Shown in pieces: positions 17,284-27,354 of a DNA stretch of 41,679 nucleotides. Position numbers and translations under genes: made by a program. The DNA is from a virus: positions 1-41,679 of IMG/VR virus record IMGVR_UViG_3300025325_000056; one strand, given 5' to 3'. The notes beneath the pieces are model-generated. The model searched no databases, was not told where the DNA came from, and was given only the letters and a program-made list of their open reading frames with translations. Numbering within the stretch: the stretch's first letter is position 1; each line of letters begins with the position of its first letter.

Positions 17284-19459
17284 AAAACAGAGGTCGAATC
17301 TCGATCCCGAATATGAGAAACTCGCCAGCGAGTTCCTAGAGTTCTATTGTACCATCGTCAATCCGCGATTCGAGCGGCCCCCACACATCCGAAAACTCTG
17401 CAGGGCATTGCAAAGAATCGAGAGTGGCAATCTCAAGCGACTGATCGTCTGCATGCCCCCGCGCCACGGAAAGTCCACCACGATCTCCGATCACTTTCCC
17501 GCATGGTATCTTGGGCGCAAGCCCGACCATCAAATTATCTTCTCGACCTACGGACAGAACCTCGCTTCGGTCTTCGGACGTAAGGTGAGGAACCAGCTTT
17601 TTGACTCGGTCCACAGCCGTATCTTCCCGGACTGCCACATCGCCTATGACTCGAAGGCCAAAAACCAGTTCACGACCATTGAAGGGGGGATTTACAACGC
17701 CGTCGGGCGCGGCAGTTCGATCACCGGCAAGGGGGCGAACCTAGGCATCCTCGACGACATGCTCAAGGACGATCGTGAGGCCGAGAGCCGGTCGATCCGG
17801 GACGGATTCAAGGACTGGTACCGTTCCACTTTTGTCACGCGGCTTGAGCCGGACGGGGCGATCATTATCGTGGCCTGCATGACAGGAGACACGCCGGTTC
17901 TGATGGCGACCGGACATGAAAAGCCGTTGCGCGATATTCGCCAAGGAGATCAAGTTGCTACCTACGAAGATGGCAAGATCGCGGCCTCCATAGTGCGTAA
18001 TTGGGCCAATCAAGGTCCTGATTATATCTTTACAATCAGGATGAAATCGGGGATAACCGTTCGAGCAAACGCAAGGCACCCGTTCCTTGTGCATGAAGGC
18101 GGTGAAACGAGATGGCGGCGAACGGATTCGCTAAAAAAGGGCAGTGTTATCCTGCGGGCTATTGGGGCAAGTGGAGGGGGATCAGTTGCGTCACAAAGGG
18201 ATGCGGAAAGCCCGCCAAGTGCAAAGGCATGTGCCCCTCGCACTACAATAAACACCGCTGGAAAACTGGAATCCGCCCTCCATCAGTCAATCCTCGTTCC
18301 CGTCGTGAAGCGCGTTTGCGCCATCGTTACGGAATTGATCTCGCGCATTATGAACGCCTTGTGGCCGAACAGGGCGGCGTTTGCGCCATCTGCAAACAAC
18401 CTCCCACGCGGCGGAACACCCGCGCTCATTGGAATGGGAAACTCTGCGTCGATCACTTCCACGATAGAGAGAAAGTTCGGGGCCTTCTCTGCAACGACTG
18501 CAACCTTGCGGTCGGTTACGGAAAAACTGAAGCAGTTCTCCGCGCCGCCGCTGAATACGTTCGGAGTCGCTCATGATATTGTGGATGAGATCTTCAAGAG
18601 CGGCATTGAAGATGTTTTCGACATTCAGGTTGAACGCACCGAAAACTTTATCGCCAACGGCTTAGTGAGCCACAATACTCGCTGGCACGACGACGATCCC
18701 GTGGGTTTCGTCTTGAAGGAGTTTGCTTCGGAAGGATGGGAGCAGATTGTTCTTCCAGCTTTAAGCGAAGACGAAACAATCGCTCTGTGGCCGGAACGGT
18801 ATCCCGTCGAGCGGCTTCTGAAAATCAAAACAGGTCTGACCCCCTACTTCTGGAACGCACTTTACCAGCAACGCCCGTCCGCCCGCGAAGGAAACATTCT
18901 CAAGCGTGAGTGGTGGAAATTTTACGGGGAGAAGCAGACCGAGAAGCTCCCCGCCCGATTCGACAAAGTGATCCAGTCGTGGGACTTGAGTTTCAAGGAG
19001 GGGGCCGACAATTCCTTCGTGGTGGGCCAAGTGTGGGGAAAAGTGGGACCGAAGAATTATTTGCTCCACCAGTACCGTAGACAAATCGGCTTCATCGACA
19101 CGCTAAAAGCCTTCGCGCAAGTCACGACGATGTACCCACAAGCCTACCGGAAGTTGATCGAGGACAAGGCCAACGGCCCGGCGATGATCGACGTGCTGAA
19201 AAAAAAAGTGTCGGGCATCATCGCGGTTCCGGTCGATGGATCGAAGCCGGAGCGAGCCAGTGCGGTCTCTCCGATCATCGAGAGCGGATGTGTCTTCCTT
19301 CCCGATCCCGACGAACAGCCTTATGTCTTGGATTTCATCGACAGAAGTGCTAACTTCCCAAAAGGTGAGTTCGACGATGAAACGGACGCGATGACCCAAG
19401 CCCTTTCAGATTTGAATGACTCATCGGCGATGCGACTGGAAAAACTTTTGGCAGATTGA
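17246..19459 (+). CDS. terL: Large terminase containing an intein
   Basis: A 737-residue reading. After removal of the intein (residues 211-477) the exteins give a 470-residue terminase. The ATPase half has Walker A MPPRHGKST (residues 70-78) and a Walker B-like LGILDDML. The nuclease half has IQSWDLSFKE, IEDKANGP and DDETDAM acidic clusters of the RNase H-like fold. The intein lies exactly before TRWHDDDP, a conserved terminase motif (IIVATRWH in intein-free relatives). It cuts and drives DNA into proheads at the portal. Splicing must occur for activity. Confidence 0.9.
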   Translation: METMETIQETTLEKQRSNLDPEYEKLASEFLEFYCTIVNPRFERPPHIRKLCRALQRIESGNLKRLIVCMPPRHGKSTTISDHFPAWYLGRKPDHQIIFSTYGQNLASVFGRKVRNQLFDSVHSRIFPDCHIAYDSKAKNQFTTIEGGIYNAVGRGSSITGKGANLGILDDMLKDDREAESRSIRDGFKDWYRSTFVTRLEPDGAIIIVACMTGDTPVLMATGHEKPLRDIRQGDQVATYEDGKIAASIVRNWANQGPDYIFTIRMKSGITVRANARHPFLVHEGGETRWRRTDSLKKGSVILRAIGASGGGSVASQRDAESPPSAKACAPRTTINTAGKLESALHQSILVPVVKRVCAIVTELISRIMNALWPNRAAFAPSANNLPRGGTPALIGMGNSASITSTIERKFGAFSATTATLRSVTEKLKQFSAPPLNTFGVAHDIVDEIFKSGIEDVFDIQVERTENFIANGLVSHNTRWHDDDPVGFVLKEFASEGWEQIVLPALSEDETIALWPERYPVERLLKIKTGLTPYFWNALYQQRPSAREGNILKREWWKFYGEKQTEKLPARFDKVIQSWDLSFKEGADNSFVVGQVWGKVGPKNYLLHQYRRQIGFIDTLKAFAQVTTMYPQAYRKLIEDKANGPAMIDVLKKKVSGIIAVPVDGSKPERASAVSPIIESGCVFLPDPDEQPYVLDFIDRSANFPKGEFDDETDAMTQALSDLNDSSAMRLEKLLAD
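17876..18676 (+). mobile_element. Intein in large terminase
   Basis: 267 residues in the terminase frame. Block A is CMTGDTPVLMATGHEKPLRD with nucleophile Cys1; block B is VRANARHPFLVHEG with its histidine. The C-terminal blocks are DVFDIQVERTENFIANGLVS followed by His-Asn, and the first C-extein residue is Thr. All residues needed for splicing are present. The region between the splicing halves shows no endonuclease in this frame; it is a low-complexity linker read across the nuclease gene at 18112-18576, which uses another frame. Confidence 0.9.
18112..18576 (+). CDS. Endonuclease VII-like HNH gene nested in intein (other frame)
   Basis: A 154-residue protein in the +2 frame relative to the terminase. 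It has an N-terminal zinc finger (CGKPAKCKGMCPSHY) and then a recombination endonuclease VII-type core: RYGIDLAHYERLVAEQGGVC, AICKQPP, LCVDHFHD, KVRGLLCNDCNLAVG. Conserved CxxC pairs and the DH.H motif are intact. The start lies within the intein's N-terminal splicing half (after block B), with GGCGGTGA upstream. The stop lies at the border of the C-terminal splicing half. It is likely the homing nuclease that spreads this intein. Confidence 0.85.
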   Translation: MAANGFAKKGQCYPAGYWGKWRGISCVTKGCGKPAKCKGMCPSHYNKHRWKTGIRPPSVNPRSRREARLRHRYGIDLAHYERLVAEQGGVCAICKQPPTRRNTRAHWNGKLCVDHFHDREKVRGLLCNDCNLAVGYGKTEAVLRAAAEYVRSRS

Positions 19460-19469
19460 GAGGTATCTC

Positions 19470-20840
19470 ATGGCGGATGAAACAAAAAAAGTCTCGGTCA
19501 CTGACGGTCTTTCCAACGTCATCACAAATCTTGGTATCTTAAACAAAGACAAACGGACTGGGGCGCGGTTCGACGAGCTGTTTCTTTTCCGCGAAGATGT
19601 CGATCCGATCTATCAGTCAAGCGACGTTGCCGCCCGGATCATCGACCGACCCCCGGAGGAGATGACCCGCGAGGGATTCAAAGTCATCGTGGACGGCAAG
19701 GAGATGACCGAGGAGATTCAGGTCATCTTCGAGGACTTGGGACTCGATAAGAAGATCGAACAAGCCCTTAAGTGGGCGCGGCTCTATGGAGGCGCTGGCC
19801 TCATCATGGGCGCGAAGGACGGCCAGCAACCGGACCAGCCGGTCAACTGGAAAGGAATCTCTACGCTCGACTACGTGACGGGTCTTGACCGATACCGACT
19901 CCGACCCTCCGGCACTGAGCAGATCGACGGCGACGTGACTTCCAAGAACTTCGGCAAGCCCGTCTTCTACACGCTCCAAAATCTTCAATACACCAGCACG
20001 TCGCCAGCCGTGGCCCTCCCAAAGATTCACTACACGCGGGTCATCCGGTTCGAGGGCATACCCGTCTCATGGCAACAGGAAGCGAGAGTTGATTGGTGGG
20101 GGGACTCGATCCTTTCCCGATTGCTCAACCCGATCATGAACTACGGACTCGCCCACGATTCGGCGGCTTTGATCGTGCAGGACTACACTCAACTCTTGGT
20201 AAAGCTGAAAAATCTCTCCGACATGATCGCCAGCGGGGAGGAAGCCCTCGTCCAGAAGCGGTTGCAGATGGTAGCCTTCTCCGCATCGATCATCAACGCA
20301 CTGGTCGTCGAGGAAGGGGAGGAAATCGAACGCAAGACGACGAACGTCTCCGGCCTTCCCGAATTGCTCAAGATGATAAACTCGCGGTTAGTGGCGGCGA
20401 CCGATCTTCCCCACACGATCCTCCTCGGAGAATCGCCCGACGGGTCCAACGCCACCGGGAACGCCACGACACTCCAATGGTACGACCACGTCAAGAACAA
20501 GCAGGAGAGCGTTCTCCGCCCGATCCTCAAGCAGGTGTTGACGTTCATCTTCGCGGCGAAAGACGGGCCGACTAAGGGAGTGATCCCGAAAGACTTCACC
20601 ATCGAGTTCAATCCCCTCTGGCAGATGAGCGAGAAGGAGCAAGCGGACATCCATTTCGTACAGGCGCAGGCCGATGCGATCTATCTCGACCGGGCGGTCC
20701 TCGACCCCGACGAGGTGGCCGACAGCCGGTTCGGGTCCGGGCAATTCTCCATCGAGACAACACTCGACGGCGAGACCCGCGAGGCCGTCGAGAAACCGCC
20801 GACGCCCGGAGATCAGACCCCGAACCAAGCGGGAGGATAA
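19470..20840 (+). CDS. Portal protein (DUF1073 type)
   Basis: A 456-residue portal of the DUF1073/Phage_portal_3 kind: an N-terminal region with IYQSSDVAARIIDRPPEEMT, then WARLYGGAGLIMG, a middle region with HTILLGESPDGSNATGN and a C-terminal helical part. It forms the dodecameric vertex through which DNA is packaged and on which the neck assembles. ATG 19470 follows GAGAGG; an in-frame ATG further up overlaps the terminase gene and lacks a ribosome site. It directly precedes the Mu-F-like gene (GTG one base after its stop). Confidence 0.88.
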   Translation: MADETKKVSVTDGLSNVITNLGILNKDKRTGARFDELFLFREDVDPIYQSSDVAARIIDRPPEEMTREGFKVIVDGKEMTEEIQVIFEDLGLDKKIEQALKWARLYGGAGLIMGAKDGQQPDQPVNWKGISTLDYVTGLDRYRLRPSGTEQIDGDVTSKNFGKPVFYTLQNLQYTSTSPAVALPKIHYTRVIRFEGIPVSWQQEARVDWWGDSILSRLLNPIMNYGLAHDSAALIVQDYTQLLVKLKNLSDMIASGEEALVQKRLQMVAFSASIINALVVEEGEEIERKTTNVSGLPELLKMINSRLVAATDLPHTILLGESPDGSNATGNATTLQWYDHVKNKQESVLRPILKQVLTFIFAAKDGPTKGVIPKDFTIEFNPLWQMSEKEQADIHFVQAQADAIYLDRAVLDPDEVADSRFGSGQFSIETTLDGETREAVEKPPTPGDQTPNQAGG

Positions 20841-22595
20841 GTGGAACTTCAACGCTTCGATCAGGCCATCGTCCCGGCCATCATCGAACAACAGCGCAAC
20901 CGCGCCAAGTCGAAGGGAAGGGCCTTGCGCCTCAAGAGAGTGCCCCGCTTCCGATCCATCAAGGGCCTGCAACGCTCTTATCTTCGGGACCTCAAGCCAC
21001 TCCTTTCCCTGATGCGCGAGGTCGTGGCGCAAAACGTAGTGCCCCTCCTTGCCCCGATTATCCAGCAGTTGCAGAACTTGAGGCCGAGGGCCGACTCCGT
21101 GCGGCTCGACGACTTTGCCGATGACATTGACCGGGCCATGAAGGAGGCACGCATCCAGTTCGCCCGGAAGTACACGCCTGAGGAGATCGCCATCCTCATC
21201 AAGAAACACGCCAACCGGATCGAGCAGTTCAGCGCAGAGGAGATCGACCGGGTATTCGGGGCCGTGCTCGGCATCGACATCGCCCGCGTCGAGCCGTGGA
21301 TGGCGACCGAGATCAAGTCCTTCGTGAACGAGAACGTCTCTCTCATCAAGTCGATCCCGGAGCAGTTCTTCGACCGGGTGGAGCAGACGGTCATCCGGGA
21401 GGTCAAGGCCGGGTCCCTTACCGGAGAGATCGCCGACGAGATTCAGCACATCTACGGGGTCAGCGAGAGCCGGGCCGCGCTCATCGCCCGCGACCAGACA
21501 TCGAAGTTCAATGGGAGTTTGAATCATCTTAGGCAGGCGAATGTCGGGATCAAGAAATATATTTGGAGGACATCGCGTGATGAGCGCGTTCGAGAATCTC
21601 ATGCCGAGAAAGAGGGTGAGACGTTTTCGTGGGACGATCCACCTGCCGATACAGGACATCCGGGGGATGATATCAATTGTTTTCTTGGTGATTCACTACT
21701 ATCGATTTCTGGAAGGATTGAAAGAGGGTTTAAGAGATTCTATACTGGCCCGATCGTGAAAATCGCAGATGAAACCGGCATAAGTGTTTCGGTAACTCCG
21801 AATCATCCAATACTGACCATGCGCGGGTGGGTTTTTGCAAAGGAGATTGAGGCGACGGACAAGCTCTTCAAGAGATTCTCTCCTGATGTGGGACGCATCT
21901 TTGACGCAAAGATAGATAATCGTCATGCCTCGGCCAGTGACATCTTCGATTTTCTTAAAGTCAAATTTTCTTCTAAGAGGATCGCAGGACTGGACATTCA
22001 ATTCCACGGCGACGGTTCCGACCATGAAGTCGAAATTGTAACCGTCGAGGGCGACTTGCCTCCTCACGTCTTTGAAACCGGAATCGCCAAGAAACTTGAA
22101 AACCGTATCCTCTCCTACGCCGACTTTACTCATCGATCTCTGTTTAGCGAGCGCGAGTTTTCGGAGATGCTCCATCGTCAATGGTTTTCCACGAACAGTA
22201 TCATGAGCTTTGCGAATTTGATTGATTCGCTTGGCCGTGTTCATGCGCGACCACTTGAGTTTTTCCGCCTCGCTTCTATTCCTGATATGGATTCCATTCT
22301 CGCTCAAGCGGGATCGAATGACATTGCGGGCAGTCGAAAAAATTTCTGCGATACGGTTCTCACTCACGCCAGAAAGATACAATCGCTTGATCTCTGTAAC
22401 ATCGAGATTTATGCGATTCCAGCTTCTTCTTTTCTTTGTTTTCCTGTCAGTATTAAGTCGATTAGTCATCAAGATGCCTCCTGTTTTGTATTCAATTTCA
22501 ATACAACGGATGGCATCTTATTGTCAAACAACATTATTACGTCAAACTGCCGTTGCACGGCTATCCCTGTGTTTGAGGAAGAAGCGTCTGAATGA
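20841..22595 (+). CDS. Mu-F-like minor head protein containing an intein
   Basis: A 584-residue reading that splices to about 294 residues. The N-terminal extein is helical, with ARKYTPEEIAILIKKHANRI, then SESRAALIARDQTSKFNGSL, WRTSRDERVRESH and HPGDDIN. The C-terminal extein is only CRCTAIPVFEEEASE. Joined, HPGDDIN-CRCTAIP is the conserved end of the Mu F/SPP1 gp7 family of head-morphogenesis proteins. GTG start after GGAGG. The last 35 bases overlap the end of a convergent gene on the minus strand. Confidence 0.88.
   Translation: MELQRFDQAIVPAIIEQQRNRAKSKGRALRLKRVPRFRSIKGLQRSYLRDLKPLLSLMREVVAQNVVPLLAPIIQQLQNLRPRADSVRLDDFADDIDRAMKEARIQFARKYTPEEIAILIKKHANRIEQFSAEEIDRVFGAVLGIDIARVEPWMATEIKSFVNENVSLIKSIPEQFFDRVEQTVIREVKAGSLTGEIADEIQHIYGVSESRAALIARDQTSKFNGSLNHLRQANVGIKKYIWRTSRDERVRESHAEKEGETFSWDDPPADTGHPGDDINCFLGDSLLSISGRIERGFKRFYTGPIVKIADETGISVSVTPNHPILTMRGWVFAKEIEATDKLFKRFSPDVGRIFDAKIDNRHASASDIFDFLKVKFSSKRIAGLDIQFHGDGSDHEVEIVTVEGDLPPHVFETGIAKKLENRILSYADFTHRSLFSEREFSEMLHRQWFSTNSIMSFANLIDSLGRVHARPLEFFRLASIPDMDSILAQAGSNDIAGSRKNFCDTVLTHARKIQSLDLCNIEIYAIPASSFLCFPVSIKSISHQDASCFVFNFNTTDGILLSNNIITSNCRCTAIPVFEEEASE
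21678..22547 (+). mobile_element. Intein in Mu-F-like head protein
   Basis: 290 residues (280-569 of the reading). Block A starts CFLGDSLLSISGRIERGFKR; block B is VSVTPNHPILT with its histidine; the C-terminal blocks are CFVFNFNTTDGILLSNNIIT followed by Ser-Asn, and the +1 residue is Cys. The penultimate residue is Ser where His is usual. The roughly 140-residue linker between the halves has no endonuclease motif in this frame; it is the reverse strand of the gene at 21699-22469. AT content is higher than in the exteins, consistent with recent entry. Confidence 0.88.
21699..22469 (-). CDS. Vsr-like PD-(D/E)XK homing endonuclease antisense to intein
   Basis: A 256-residue protein read from the opposite strand, covering almost the whole intein. 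It has an N-terminal HTH (EIKRLYLSGVSENRIAEIFS), then a nuclease core resembling Vsr-like/EDxHD homing endonucleases: GEDTVFKFLGDSGFKDVRRQ, ALDGYNFDFMV, TVAVELNVQS and TIIYLCV, with likely catalytic Asp in FDF and Glu in VELN. AGGAGG sits 7 bases before the ATG at 22469, a perfect ribosome site placed inside the coding sequence for the intein's C-terminal half. The stop is 7 codons from the intein's first residue. Confidence 0.8.
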   Translation of the reverse strand: MTNRLNTDRKTKKRRSWNRINLDVTEIKRLYLSGVSENRIAEIFSTARNVIRSRLSENGIHIRNRSEAEKLKWSRMNTAKRINQIRKAHDTVRGKPLTMEHLRKLALAKQRSMSKVGVGEDTVFKFLGDSGFKDVRRQVALDGYNFDFMVGTVAVELNVQSCDPLRRKFDFKKIEDVTGRGMTIIYLCVKDASHIRRESLEELVRRLNLLCKNPPAHGQYWMIRSYRNTYAGFICDFHDRASIESLKPSFNPSRNR

Positions 22596-23130
22596 ACGGA
22601 ATTTCCCGCCAGAAGATCGACCACCACGAAAGATGCTGGACGCCCTTTCCCTGAATCGTGACGAGGGAGTTGGGCGGAAGGACGACGAGGCCGTGGAGCT
22701 TGACGTGCCGGACTTCCGGGGTCTCGTTCATCGCCGAGCTTCCAGCGAAATGATCCAAGGCCATGATTGCGGTCGTCTCGGTCGGGAGGGTCGCCTGCCC
22801 GATGGCCGTTGCCTTGCTCGACGGGAAGCGATTGAGTATCGCGCTGTAAATCGGGAGGAAGACGATGTTCTCGGCTTTGTCGGAAGGGGACAGGACGGAG
22901 GTCATCAGGAAGTCGGTCTGCTCGCCTGACCCGATAGAGGCCATGTAGCCGTTGATCTGCATGAGCGAGAGCAGGACCCCGCTGTCCGGTGGGTTATAGA
23001 GGCCGATGGAGGTCAGGTCCTTCGTGAAGGCGTTGACCATCTTTCCGGGCTTGTCCATCGCCGAGAAGAAGATCGGCTCGCTCGGTTCAGTCATCCCCAT
23101 CGGCGGTCTGAATTGGTCGTGCTCGCTCAC
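22561..23130 (-). CDS. Virion-like protein, 189 aa
   Basis: Start GTG 23130 after GGAGG. The C-terminal half (VKLHGLVVLPPNSLVTIQGK, then SWWSIFWREIP) resembles small beta-structured phage surface proteins that end in a W-REIP-like motif. No family named. It is the last gene of an eight-gene minus-strand block and overlaps the end of the Mu-F-like gene tail-to-tail by 35 bases, leaving no room for a terminator between the convergent operons. Confidence 0.6.
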   Translation of the reverse strand: MSEHDQFRPPMGMTEPSEPIFFSAMDKPGKMVNAFTKDLTSIGLYNPPDSGVLLSLMQINGYMASIGSGEQTDFLMTSVLSPSDKAENIVFLPIYSAILNRFPSSKATAIGQATLPTETTAIMALDHFAGSSAMNETPEVRHVKLHGLVVLPPNSLVTIQGKGVQHLSWWSIFWREIPFIQTLLPQTQG

Positions 23131-23450
23131 AGGCACCTCCAAAGTATCGGCAGATAGGCGAACCCGCTCCCTGCCAGACGGAAAACGAGGTCGATCCTTC
23201 CGTCGGCGCCGCTCTCGGTATTAGAGAAGAAATCGCGCCAGTGCTCGTCCTCGACGAACTCCTTGAACAACGAAAACGCTACGCACAAGAGCCCCGCATA
23301 AACTCCGAAGCGCGGAATCGAGACGAGGAGGGTCGTCACGAAGAAGGCGGGGAGAAAGTGGTCAGCAACTTGGTTCTGTCCCGATGGGTTAGGGAGAATC
23401 TTGAAGTTGATCCATGAGAGAATCTTTGCGAAGATGTCGTCGGTCTTCAT
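23127..23450 (-). CDS. Small membrane protein, 107 aa
   Basis: Start ATG 23450 after AAGGTGGTG. There are two adjacent hydrophobic segments at about residues 28-62 (FLPAFFVTTLLVSI and YAGLLCVAFSLF), probably a helical hairpin, flanked by polar ends. The start overlaps the stop of 23447 (ATGA) and the stop overlaps the next start (GTGA). Unknown role; its place among virion-like proteins suggests an injected or virion-associated membrane protein rather than a holin. Confidence 0.55.
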   Translation of the reverse strand: MKTDDIFAKILSWINFKILPNPSGQNQVADHFLPAFFVTTLLVSIPRFGVYAGLLCVAFSLFKEFVEDEHWRDFFSNTESGADGRIDLVFRLAGSGFAYLPILWRCL

Positions 23451-23608
23451 CGGCTCACCACCTTCACGAAGACGGCGTAGGTTTTTGTTCCGAGCGGGAA
23501 GATCGCCAGCAGTTTCCATCCGTTCGCGAGCTGGTTGTCGAAGCCGCTCTCCATCTGCGCGATGGTCGCGGTCGCCGGAATCTCAATCACCTTTGATCTT
23601 GCCTTCAT
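23447..23608 (-). CDS. Unknown 53-aa protein
   Basis: Starts at ATG 23608 with GGAG upstream and overlaps both neighbours by ATGA. The sequence (MKARSKVIEIPATATIAQME, then NGWKLLAIFPLGTKTYAVFV) looks like a compact alpha/beta unit. No family named. Confidence 0.5.
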   Translation of the reverse strand: MKARSKVIEIPATATIAQMESGFDNQLANGWKLLAIFPLGTKTYAVFVKVVSR

Positions 23609-23892
23609 AATGGGTTCTCCGTCGCCAGATTCAGGACGTAGGTTCCGTTGCCGAGATACTTCACATCGGCCCAAGTGATGAGGACGCCGTCGATCAACGC
23701 CTTGAACTGCGTGTAAGTCTTGACGATCTCGAAGGTCGTCTCGGCGATGGTGATTTGATCGACCGGAACGGCGGTCGCCTTGAAGTTCGTCTCGAAGTCC
23801 GACTTGTCGGCGCCGTTCTGCGTGACTTCGGCGGCTGTGAGGCCGATCACTTTGCTCGTGTCCTTGAAGATCATTGTTTTGTAGAGGTACAT
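23605..23892 (-). CDS. Unknown 95-aa protein
   Basis: A small soluble protein with a central helical region (ALIDGVLITWADVKYLGNGT near the end). Translation is likely coupled to the gene upstream, whose stop is three bases away. No family named; probably a virion accessory by context. Confidence 0.5.
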   Translation of the reverse strand: MYLYKTMIFKDTSKVIGLTAAEVTQNGADKSDFETNFKATAVPVDQITIAETTFEIVKTYTQFKALIDGVLITWADVKYLGNGTYVLNLATENPL

Positions 23893-23894
23893 GA

Positions 23895-24521
23895 TTAAAC
23901 GTCCTGTTCTCCCCAGTCCAGATTGAAGGTTGTATCCACGCCCGCCGCCGACGACTTCTGGATCGTGAGCAGGACCACTCCCGTCTGCGGAATCTGTCGC
24001 TCGAAGTCAAGAAACAGGCTGATGGAAAAGTTATTGTTGAAGGCGAAGGCTTGCCGGAACGTCCCGAAGGCGGTGGCGACCGGATTGATGAAGACTTGAG
24101 AAGTCGAAACACTTCCGGCGGCTGGGTTCGCCCTGCCGATAGTCAATGCCGTACCGTCGCTCGTGAGGGTCGGGGTGTCGTAGGTGCGAACCACGATGGA
24201 GAAGGCAGAAGTGGTCGCCAAGGCTCCCAAGAGATTCTTGAGGCGAACCGTCCTTCCCGATCCCGCCGGATTGCGGAACAGGAAGAAACCGTTCTCGTTG
24301 ATGTTGCCGGGAAGCGAGAAGACGTTGGACGAGACGTAGTAGAGCCGCCCGTCGTCCGACAACTTCTGGCCGAGGGTCCGCACGTCGATGGCCGCGATGC
24401 CGCTCTCGGTGATCGGCAGGACCTTGAGAATCTTCTCGCCGAAGACATCCTGCACCGCGAGCGGGTTCCCGTCGGGATCATAAAGAGTCACGTCCTGCGT
24501 TGAAACAGGAAGATCGGACAT
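23895..24521 (-). CDS. Virion-like beta protein, 208 aa
   Basis: Start ATG after GGAGAG. N-terminal residues (VTLYDPDGNPLAVQD) resemble the base-binding segment of phage surface proteins; the rest is beta-rich (GFFLFRNPAGSGRTVRLKNL) and ends in a strongly amphipathic strand. I infer a virion surface or accessory fibre protein. No enzyme motifs. Confidence 0.55.
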   Translation of the reverse strand: MSDLPVSTQDVTLYDPDGNPLAVQDVFGEKILKVLPITESGIAAIDVRTLGQKLSDDGRLYYVSSNVFSLPGNINENGFFLFRNPAGSGRTVRLKNLLGALATTSAFSIVVRTYDTPTLTSDGTALTIGRANPAAGSVSTSQVFINPVATAFGTFRQAFAFNNNFSISLFLDFERQIPQTGVVLLTIQKSSAAGVDTTFNLDWGEQDV

Positions 24522-24533
24522 TATCTCTCCGTT

Positions 24534-25079
24534 CTATCCAACTTCATTTCCATTCACGTAGGCGTAGAGGTCTTGGTTCGCCGTGTCCTTGTTGGTCACG
24601 GTCACGAGAATCTTATCGCCCGCCGCGACTTCGATGGGTGACGGAAGCTCGTTGTCGTAGTTCGGTGAAGCGGTCGAGGTGAAGGCCGTCTGCTTGGTGA
24701 CCTCCGCCGCCGCAGGTCCCACGCGAAGCTCGACCTTTAATTTGCCGGAACCAGCCGCCCCGAACTTTCGGATGACGAAGGTCTTGCCAGCCGTCACCGT
24801 GTAGTTCACGACGTCGGACGGGGTGTTGGGGACACCCGCGACGGTCGTCCCGTAAACCTGCTTCTCGGTCGCCTGAATCCCGCCTTGGATGATGACGTTG
24901 ATCGAACCGTCGGCGTTCACGGCCAGATTGTCCGTCCCGTCCGTCACCTTGGATTTGGTGAGCAGTTCCTTGTCCGCGTTGACTGCCGCCTGATTCGCGG
25001 CGTCGTCGCCGGTGATCTTGACTACCGCGTCCCCATCCGCTTCGGTCCTGATGGGTAAGGACGAGTTAAAGTCTGCCAT
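24534..25079 (-). CDS. Virion-like protein, 181 aa
   Basis: Excellent ribosome site (AGGAGG) before ATG 25079. The N-terminus (LPIRTEADGDAVVKITGDDA, then ANQAAVNADKELLTKSKVTD) is of a kind seen in phage structural proteins, and the C-terminal domain is a beta-sandwich-like unit (GKTFVIRKFGAAGSG). Probably a surface decoration or fibre-like protein. Not one of the canonical head genes. Confidence 0.55.
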   Translation of the reverse strand: MADFNSSLPIRTEADGDAVVKITGDDAANQAAVNADKELLTKSKVTDGTDNLAVNADGSINVIIQGGIQATEKQVYGTTVAGVPNTPSDVVNYTVTAGKTFVIRKFGAAGSGKLKVELRVGPAAAEVTKQTAFTSTASPNYDNELPSPIEVAAGDKILVTVTNKDTANQDLYAYVNGNEVG

Positions 25080-25859: not shown

Positions 25860-25920
25860 GAGATATTATTAGCACCAAACCTTTATTGCGTCACCGTTTG
25901 ATTTGATGTATTGATTGACC
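25860..25920. promoter_or_regulatory. Divergent intergenic region, probable promoters
   Basis: The only gap between the minus-strand block and the plus-strand head operon. It is AT-rich, with TAATAAT close to the minus-strand start and TATTGA close to the plus-strand start. Both elements are weak matches to -10 boxes with no clear -35. The divergent arrangement requires at least the minus-strand promoter to lie here. Confidence 0.35.
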
Positions 25921-27354
25921 ATGACCGTCCATCGCTACGACCAAAGCCGACTCGATGGTTCCCACGTCACCCCGCAAGGATTCTTGAAAGCGGACGCCGT
26001 TCCGACTCGCGCCGGAGTTTTTGTCTATCGCTTGGGGGACGGCTCGGTCCGCAGGGAATTTCGTTCACCGGAGGAAGTCTTCAATCAGGACTCGCTCAAG
26101 ACCTTGACCGAGGCCCCAGTTACCAACGACCACCCCCCTTTCCCCGTCGATTCGGCCAACGCCAAGGAGTTCACGGTCGGGTTCACCGGATCAGAAATTG
26201 CCCGGAAGGACAACCTCGCCATGACCCGCGTGACCATCTTCGACCAAGGGACCATCAACGAGATCATGCGCGGGGAGAAGCAGGAATTGTCGGGCGGATA
26301 TCTTTGCGACGTGGAGCACACGCCGGGGGAGTTCAACGGGGAGGCTTATGACGCCGTCCAGAAAAACATTCGCTACAATCACCTCGCTGTCGTCCGTGCA
26401 GGCAGGGCGGGACCGGAGGCCAGGATCAAGCTCGACTCGCAGGACGCAGTCATGGTCGACAAGGACGCGCAAAGAATCGACTTCACCGCCGACGCCCTTG
26501 AGGAAACGGAAAACGAAGTCCGTGCTAGGGTGAAGAGTCCGGGCCTGTTTCAGGAGGGGTCGTTCCGAACAAAGGAGATAACCGGTGGCATCAATATTGT
26601 TCTTGGCAGGCTCAAGGACGAGATCACGATGACGCCGCAGTCCTACCGCTTCAAAAAAGAAGAAGGCTGGACGATGGAGAAGGCCCGGAAGTGGCTCTCG
26701 GAGCATGACATCTCGTTGACGGATGGTGGGGACAAAAAAAATACTGGTGACAAAACCGATTTTAGTATATCGTCAGACAAGAAACTCAAAGGAGAGGAGC
26801 AAGTTATGGCAAAACTCAAAATTGATTCCGTTGAATATGAACTCACGGAGGCCGTGGCACCCATCGTCGCCGCGAAACTCGATGCCTTGACCGCCGCTCA
26901 GAAAGAGCTTGAGACGTTAAAAGGCAAGGCTGACGGCCTTGATGTCGAGATCAAAAAGCGGGACGAGGAGATCAAGACCCTCAAATCCGCAACCCTCTCT
27001 GAAAAACAAATCCTAGAAAAAGCCGATGCACTCATCAAAGTCCGCGAGTTCGCCAAGAAGATTTTGGGCGAGGAAGTGAAACTTGACGGCGTTGAAGTCG
27101 CGGCAATCCGAAAACAGGTAGTTCAGAAAGTCCTTCCCGACATCAAGGTAGATGAGAAGTCCGACCTCTACATTGACGGCGTCTTCGATACCCTGTATCA
27201 GAAGGACAAGGACGGTGCCGGGGATGGTCTCAGGACCGCCTTGGGCACAACGATCGTGACCGACGGATCAGCTATCAGCGCGAACGATGCCCGGAAGAAA
27301 TCAATGGAACGCTCGATGAACCTTTGGAAGGGCGATAAAGCTAAAGCCGCGTAA
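25921..27354 (+). CDS. DUF2213 capsid protease / scaffold fusion
   Basis: A 477-residue protein. The N-terminal 190 residues follow the DUF2213 pattern (GFLKADAVPTRAGVFVYR, EEVF, LTEAPVTNDHPPFPV, VGFTGSEI, LSGGYLCDVEH, YNHLAVVRAGRAGPEARI), a family of prohead maturation protease-like proteins. A variable linker follows, then an acidic coiled-coil scaffold-like C-terminus (KELETLKGKADGLDVEIKKR ...). It precedes the decoration and capsid genes, as in protease-scaffold fusions. An internal start at 26806 would make the scaffold alone. Confidence 0.8.
   Translation: MTVHRYDQSRLDGSHVTPQGFLKADAVPTRAGVFVYRLGDGSVRREFRSPEEVFNQDSLKTLTEAPVTNDHPPFPVDSANAKEFTVGFTGSEIARKDNLAMTRVTIFDQGTINEIMRGEKQELSGGYLCDVEHTPGEFNGEAYDAVQKNIRYNHLAVVRAGRAGPEARIKLDSQDAVMVDKDAQRIDFTADALEETENEVRARVKSPGLFQEGSFRTKEITGGINIVLGRLKDEITMTPQSYRFKKEEGWTMEKARKWLSEHDISLTDGGDKKNTGDKTDFSISSDKKLKGEEQVMAKLKIDSVEYELTEAVAPIVAAKLDALTAAQKELETLKGKADGLDVEIKKRDEEIKTLKSATLSEKQILEKADALIKVREFAKKILGEEVKLDGVEVAAIRKQVVQKVLPDIKVDEKSDLYIDGVFDTLYQKDKDGAGDGLRTALGTTIVTDGSAISANDARKKSMERSMNLWKGDKAKAA
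26806..27354 (+). CDS. Nested in-frame start: scaffold protein
   Basis: Inside the DUF2213 frame, AAGGAGAGGAG stands 5 bases before ATG 26806, a far better site than that of the full-length gene. The 182-residue product (MAKLKIDSVEYELTEAVAPI ...) is the coiled-coil part only. Overlapping protease and scaffold from one frame is known from lambda C/Nu3. I infer the same arrangement here. Confidence 0.6.
   Translation: MAKLKIDSVEYELTEAVAPIVAAKLDALTAAQKELETLKGKADGLDVEIKKRDEEIKTLKSATLSEKQILEKADALIKVREFAKKILGEEVKLDGVEVAAIRKQVVQKVLPDIKVDEKSDLYIDGVFDTLYQKDKDGAGDGLRTALGTTIVTDGSAISANDARKKSMERSMNLWKGDKAKAA

Follow-up and report, generated by a model that had tools for sequence, protein, structure and literature searches.

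An intein in a phage head gene with a predicted homing endonuclease encoded on its opposite strand

The intein and the gene on its opposite strand

The window analyzed here is the whole stretch of 41,679 nt of IMG/VR virus record IMGVR_UViG_3300025325_000056, and the features of the locus are collected in Table 1. It contains a head gene of the MuF/SPP1-gp7 type (Pfam Phage_Mu_F, 5e-22; TIGR01641, 4e-20; phrog_15127, 2e-88), preceded by a portal gene (19416-20840) and followed by a head protease gene (25915-27354) and major capsid genes. The PHROG 15127 'head protein' profile (602 columns) itself contains the intein, and some GenBank Salmonella phage records name the head gene NAD+-asparagine ADP-ribosyltransferase. 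Translation of the head frame bore out the initial annotation, which had placed a complete intein with block B and a +1 Cys in this gene: residues 280-569 of the precursor form an in-frame insertion that splits the conserved HPGDDIN-CRC motif, the +1 residue being the Cys of NCRC. GC content is 44.7% in the intein compared to 59.0% in the N-extein, which would fit a foreign origin.

Table 1 Features of the intein locus, with positions in the window
Feature	Positions	Strand	Basis or remark
MuF/SPP1-gp7-type minor head (head morphogenesis) gene, intein host	20841-22595	+	584-aa precursor
Class-1 intein, Cys1 to Asn290, +1 Cys	21678-22547	+	Translation, profile, Hint fold
Intein block B, TPNHPILT	21795-21818	+	Opposite nuclease GQYWMIRS (residues 218-225)
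Sense motif FHGD	22002-22013	+	Directly faces nuclease VAVE (catalytic)
Intein blocks F and G (C-terminal splicing half)	22461-22547	+	Alignment; sense-like four-fold sites
Antisense endonuclease gene, 256 aa	21699-22469	-	ATG at 22469, stop at 21699-21701, inside the intein
Shine-Dalgarno sequence AGGAGG	22477-22482	-	7 nt upstream of the ATG at 22469
Predicted HTH DNA-binding region, about residues 20-57	22299-22412	-	HTH families in members; model helices
Predicted Vsr/PD-(D/E)XK-like catalytic domain, about residues 117-226	21792-22121	-	Conservation, 3r3p, Foldseek
Predicted disordered C-terminal tail, residues 227-256	21702-21791	-	Low pLDDT; opposite the block A side
Run of leftward ORFs downstream of the head gene	22561-25079	-	ORF list

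Block A (CFLGDS), block B, block F and the terminal Asn are recognizable in the window, and Cys1, Asn290 and residues T40, N42 and H43 of the block B TxxH motif (TPNH, residues 40-43) are invariant across the intein alignment. The penultimate residue, usually a His and a His in many relatives, is Ser289 in the window (ITS-N/C), so that the predicted splicing may be slow. Pfam Intein_splicing is matched by 37 of 39 family members, and the intein profile matches solved inteins (KlbA, 5.6e-10). In the AlphaFold2 model the two Hint halves (residues 1-66 and 250-290) have pLDDT values above 90, residues 80-122 are modeled confidently and residues 126-236 are predicted unfolded; its Foldseek neighbours are inteins and hedgehog Hint domains. 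A second, sense-strand nuclease hidden in the middle of the intein was set aside because this part is predicted unfolded.

The product of the opposite strand had been read as an HTH plus a Vsr-like nuclease, and profile and fold agree with that reading; the AGGAGG, too, was confirmed at its place 7 nt before the ATG. Family searches with the single antisense sequence gave weak HTH matches only, and a profile of 21 homologues was needed to obtain matches to the catalytic domain of I-Bth0305I (PDB 3r3p, 1.1e-7) and to 3hrl; individual members match HTH families, with MTES_1575 in 11 and DUF559 in 5 of the 21. The AlphaFold2 model from 49 sequences (pLDDT 85.5) is folded over residues 20-226, with values mostly below 50 over residues 229-256, and the structure search returned I-Bth0305I first (3r3p; Foldseek probability 1.00, TMt 0.70), with 3hrl at a probability of 0.92. 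D147 and E156 in the predicted catalytic domain are invariant in the 49-row alignment, and E120, Y144 and N145 (Y144-N145-x-D147) nearly so. Since the alignments contain no conserved H and second D of the E-D-x-H-D catalytic set, we file the nuclease as a relative of the EDxHD family and not as a proven member.

The two frames lie codon on codon, with sense position 2 facing antisense position 2 and sense position 1 facing the antisense wobble position. The claim that both strands code across the splicing-block DNA stands for block A, which nuclease codons overlap from about residue 8, and for block B, whose pairing with the nuclease is the same across 75 inteins. It does not stand for blocks F and G, of which the nuclease codons overlap the first few codons only and where block F instead holds the antisense ribosome-binding and start region. 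An annotated ORF of Sam_Sp43 was rejected as the antisense nuclease; it shares the strand of the nuclease but is read in a different frame.

Occurrence, mobility and loss

In tblastn searches, the sense intein was found in 128 phage records and the antisense protein in 103. Their hosts and lineages include Salmonella Jerseyviruses, Gordonia, Klebsiella Jedunavirus, Edwardsiella MSW-3 and Aggregatibacter Aaphi23/S1249, with further homologues in Vibrio, Idiomarinaceae, Acinetobacter and a Helicobacter prophage; a plasmid search added two records. In nearer phages the antisense product scored better than the sense one (Aaphi23, 9e-27 vs 2e-13; Vibrio PvVp04, 2e-27 vs 4e-10), while Vibrio H2 and Pseudomonas BR313c have a more diverged antisense ORF without a tblastn antisense match. 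Among the first 26 loci, the nuclease was embedded antisense in 25 and free-standing in one. Nuclease-based scans added another 64 loci, every one of which has the antisense ORF in this phase; over the length of the match the codon-on-codon frame is fully open, and the two remaining opposite frames are mostly closed. A scan of IMG/VR by the sense strand alone, with the intein itself as query, gave no matches. The fairest test, a scan for the N-terminal sense Hint domain alone, seeded with TPNHPILT, gave 456 matches, and in the best 80, ranked by likeness to the Hint domain of the window, the nuclease HMM matched antisense and in the same phase in 80/80 and on the same strand in none. Within these best 80 of 456 there are two loci cut by contig ends and one mini-intein with a nuclease remnant (L097), which is the sole loss: no intein of intact length has an antisense frame broken by stops. 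The antisense gene is annotated in none of the examined feature tables of embedded loci.

The exteins are mostly of MuF type, with dCMP deaminase (L088), VG15 (L081) and P22-like portal protein (L117) as exceptions by Pfam. An intein of the same kind is located in the zinc site of the dCMP deaminase-like protein (L088 2797-4140, on a 177 kb contig), and another in the P22-like portal protein (L117 2042-5185). One MuF-type gene (L060) has a pair of inteins, both with an antisense nuclease of their own, and the first is followed by a +1 Ser; in L085 the intein is shifted by two residues, to a position after NCR and before the second Cys.

Comparison of related genomes supports mobility of the intein. 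The overlap DNA of Snoke and jersey is about 95% identical at the nucleotide level, whereas their exteins are about 65% identical, and a similar excess of likeness of the intein over its flanks is seen between L082 and L083. In Jedunavirus the site is empty in IME346 and occupied in KpTDp1, with flanks that are almost identical and a precise junction. Near-identical inteins in divergent host genes and precise empty sites both point to transfer. The 172-aa mini-intein of L097 (on a contig shared with L176) has lost most of the nuclease region and kept the splicing blocks; FHGD is also retained in this nuclease-less form, which argues for a sense role of its own for this motif.

In Acinetobacter Obolenskvirus (L020 413-1348 and 1342-2118; L175), a free-standing nuclease gene lies tail-to-tail with an intein-less MuF gene. 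Because an uncut MuF gene adjoins this homologue within the one genome, we treat the target of the nuclease as putative. The free-standing clade is nested among embedded copies in the tree (moderate support), which suggests that the Acinetobacter gene escaped from an intein; the converse, that it represents the ancestor, was set aside on account of this nesting.

Selection on the two frames and the antisense start region

We compared homologues at each codon position, using the extein of the same gene as the control. As pooled pairs and not a full phylogenetic model, differences per codon at positions 1, 2 and 3 are 0.31, 0.24 and 0.54 in the extein and 0.40, 0.18 and 0.29 in the middle of the overlap, and at four-fold sites the sense and antisense divergence is 0.530 and 0.106 in the extein vs 0.158 and 0.334 in the overlap middle, an antisense-dominated pattern. 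Position 1 exceeds position 3 in 20 of 21 independent pairs in the overlap middle, and position 3 exceeds position 1 in 20 of 20 in the extein. The four-fold sites (again pooled, sense then antisense) further indicate that both frames are held opposite block A (0.25, 0.15) and block B (0.212, 0.103) and partly held around FHGD/VAVE (0.17, 0.25), and blocks F-G are sense-like (0.370, 0.075). The Leu and Ser codons TTA, CTA and TCA, which make up 535 of 2131 in the extein, are absent from the overlap in both the antisense (0/1950) and the sense frame (0/2672), although the open state of each frame is partly implied by the definition of the loci. By comparison, no gene lies opposite the free-standing nuclease of Acinetobacter phage IME285, and that nuclease gene uses these codons in 12 of 27 cases, with 12 stops in the opposite frame.

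Both frames of this antisense pair are thus, as judged from codon positions, four-fold sites and stop-codon avoidance, under purifying selection; together with the two predicted folds, this is the support that the initial annotation had named for its reading. Its estimate of about 770 bp of dual coding holds in part: genuinely dual coding is found at blocks A and B and at the catalytic VAVE/FHGD pair, and the intein middle is antisense-dominated, with a sense product that is mostly predicted unfolded.

The start region of the nuclease falls within the splicing half of the intein. In most members, the antisense ATG lies opposite the block F His codon and the Shine-Dalgarno sequence opposite the next Asn-Leu, the antisense signal GGAGGTTATAAACATG pairing with sense CAT GTT TAT AAC CTC C; the signal of the window is placed slightly differently, with AGGAGG opposite A-S-C. 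Of 75 family members, 61 have a Shine-Dalgarno-like site ahead of an in-frame antisense start, compared to 5 of 71 control windows. The block F His codon is CAT rather than CAC by 53:3 against an extein background of 124:140 (Fisher 2e-12), and the Leu is CTC in 43/56 against 257/1484 (4e-21), with p-values that are indicative only because related sequences are not independent. The bias recurs in the sense-selected set (best 80 of 456; CAT 30:4, CTC 23/36). Judging by these counts, the synonymous codons of block F are biased so as to form a start codon and a Shine-Dalgarno sequence on the opposite strand. A search for a sigma-70-like promoter on the minus strand near the nuclease start found none. 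The run of leftward ORFs ends about 90 nt before this start, a layout absent in some relatives, and read-through from it into the nuclease gene could be a possible route of expression.

A probable two-stranded mobile element and its relation to known systems

We consider it highly probable that the locus is a mobile intein with two functions on opposite strands, protein splicing from the sense strand and a homing endonuclease from the antisense strand. On the sense strand, the head precursor would be made with its Hint-type intein, whose self-excision would restore the conserved NCRC motif. A separate mRNA of the antisense strand, with a ribosome-binding site in or near the block F codons, would give a stand-alone HTH plus Vsr/I-Bth0305I-type nuclease. 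When phages co-infect a cell, this nuclease may cut, at the NCRC site, a MuF gene that lacks the intein; repair templated by the occupied copy would then spread the intein. What such an intein would probably gain over one with an in-frame endonuclease is expression apart from the head gene, for example earlier than this late gene.

That the antisense ORF is a mere shadow, kept open by codon bias or by conservation of the only true coding frame, that of the intein, is what one might suspect from the conserved sense frame over the same DNA and from the tendency of codon-on-codon antisense frames to be open in GC-rich genes; the window has other long antisense ORFs. Yet the codon-position test refutes the idea, since within one gene the overlap differs mostly at sense position 1 and the extein mostly at position 3; the freer antisense four-fold sites in the overlap middle, a free-standing nuclease homologue that has no sense partner and the fold match to I-Bth0305I also speak against it, and we give it almost no credence. 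It is very unlikely, too, that the nuclease is real while the 'intein' no longer splices and is an open frame read through within the head protein. The largely unfolded middle and the missing penultimate His of the window would fit such a reading, but residues in blocks A, B, F and G are conserved, with sense constraint at their four-fold sites, the nuclease-less mini-intein keeps the splicing blocks, and the insert interrupts the conserved NCRC of the head protein and is precisely absent in relatives.

Somewhat less improbable, and still unlikely, is a real nuclease whose main role is something other than homing, such as exclusion of co-infecting phages or regulation of the head gene by antisense RNA. 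A separate gene opposite an essential one would suit this role, and free-standing copies beside intein-less head genes cannot home an intein. Homing, however, predicts what is observed, namely inteins at conserved sites, near-identical inteins in divergent exteins and precise empty sites, and the nested free-standing clade looks derived. The two-stranded mobile intein is the preferred reading. A wider version of it, which we favor with moderate confidence, holds that these mobile inteins form one clade spread across phages and obligatorily divide splicing and homing between the two strands, that their catalytic motifs lie codon against codon (TPNHPILT/GQYWVIRG and FHGD/VAVE), and that the nuclease start and ribosome-binding site occupy synonymous positions of block F; the overlap would be ancient and would persist because the nuclease can then be expressed independently of the late head operon.

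Mobile inteins such as PI-SceI and PI-PfuI carry their homing endonuclease in frame. The element described here shares with them a Hint domain at a conserved site of an essential gene and an endonuclease gene that would drive homing; it differs in that the endonuclease is encoded on the opposite strand as a separate protein, overlaps the DNA of splicing blocks and belongs to the Vsr/I-Bth0305I type, not to LAGLIDADG or HNH. I-Bth0305I, a Vsr-like homing endonuclease of the EDxHD family from a group I intron in a phage recA gene, is the nearest solved structure by profile and fold and likewise combines an N-terminal DNA-binding region with a Vsr-like nuclease. Here, by contrast, the nuclease lies antisense in an intein, the H and second D of EDxHD are not conserved and sequence identity is low. 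Antisense homing endonuclease genes are known from nuclear rDNA group I introns, as in the His-Cys box enzyme I-DsqI (PMC9548176). That system shares an endonuclease gene opposite the host gene of a self-splicing element, but the element is a splicing RNA in an rRNA gene, and two proteins are not doubly encoded (PMC9548176). The sense intein has already been annotated in the capsid morphogenesis protein of Jerseyvirus/Kagunavirus UPWr phages (PMC8425127); these inteins, like that of Snoke, are members of the family found in the window. A search of the open-access literature found no description of an antisense homing endonuclease in an intein.

In familiar phages, the Salmonella Jerseyviruses among them, one gene is thus missing from intein catalogues and genome annotations (PHROGs, GenBank), and the antisense family provides new candidate site-specific nucleases. 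To our knowledge, evidence of selection has been given for few long antisense overlaps in which one protein gene is nested wholly within another; this intein family offers many independent lineages, a built-in extein control, a nuclease-less mini-intein and a free-standing nuclease, and coding on both strands is therefore quantitatively testable. The locus adds a new way of carrying a homing endonuclease in an intein: a single selfish element seems to be written on both strands of one stretch of DNA, an arrangement shared by well over 100 related loci.
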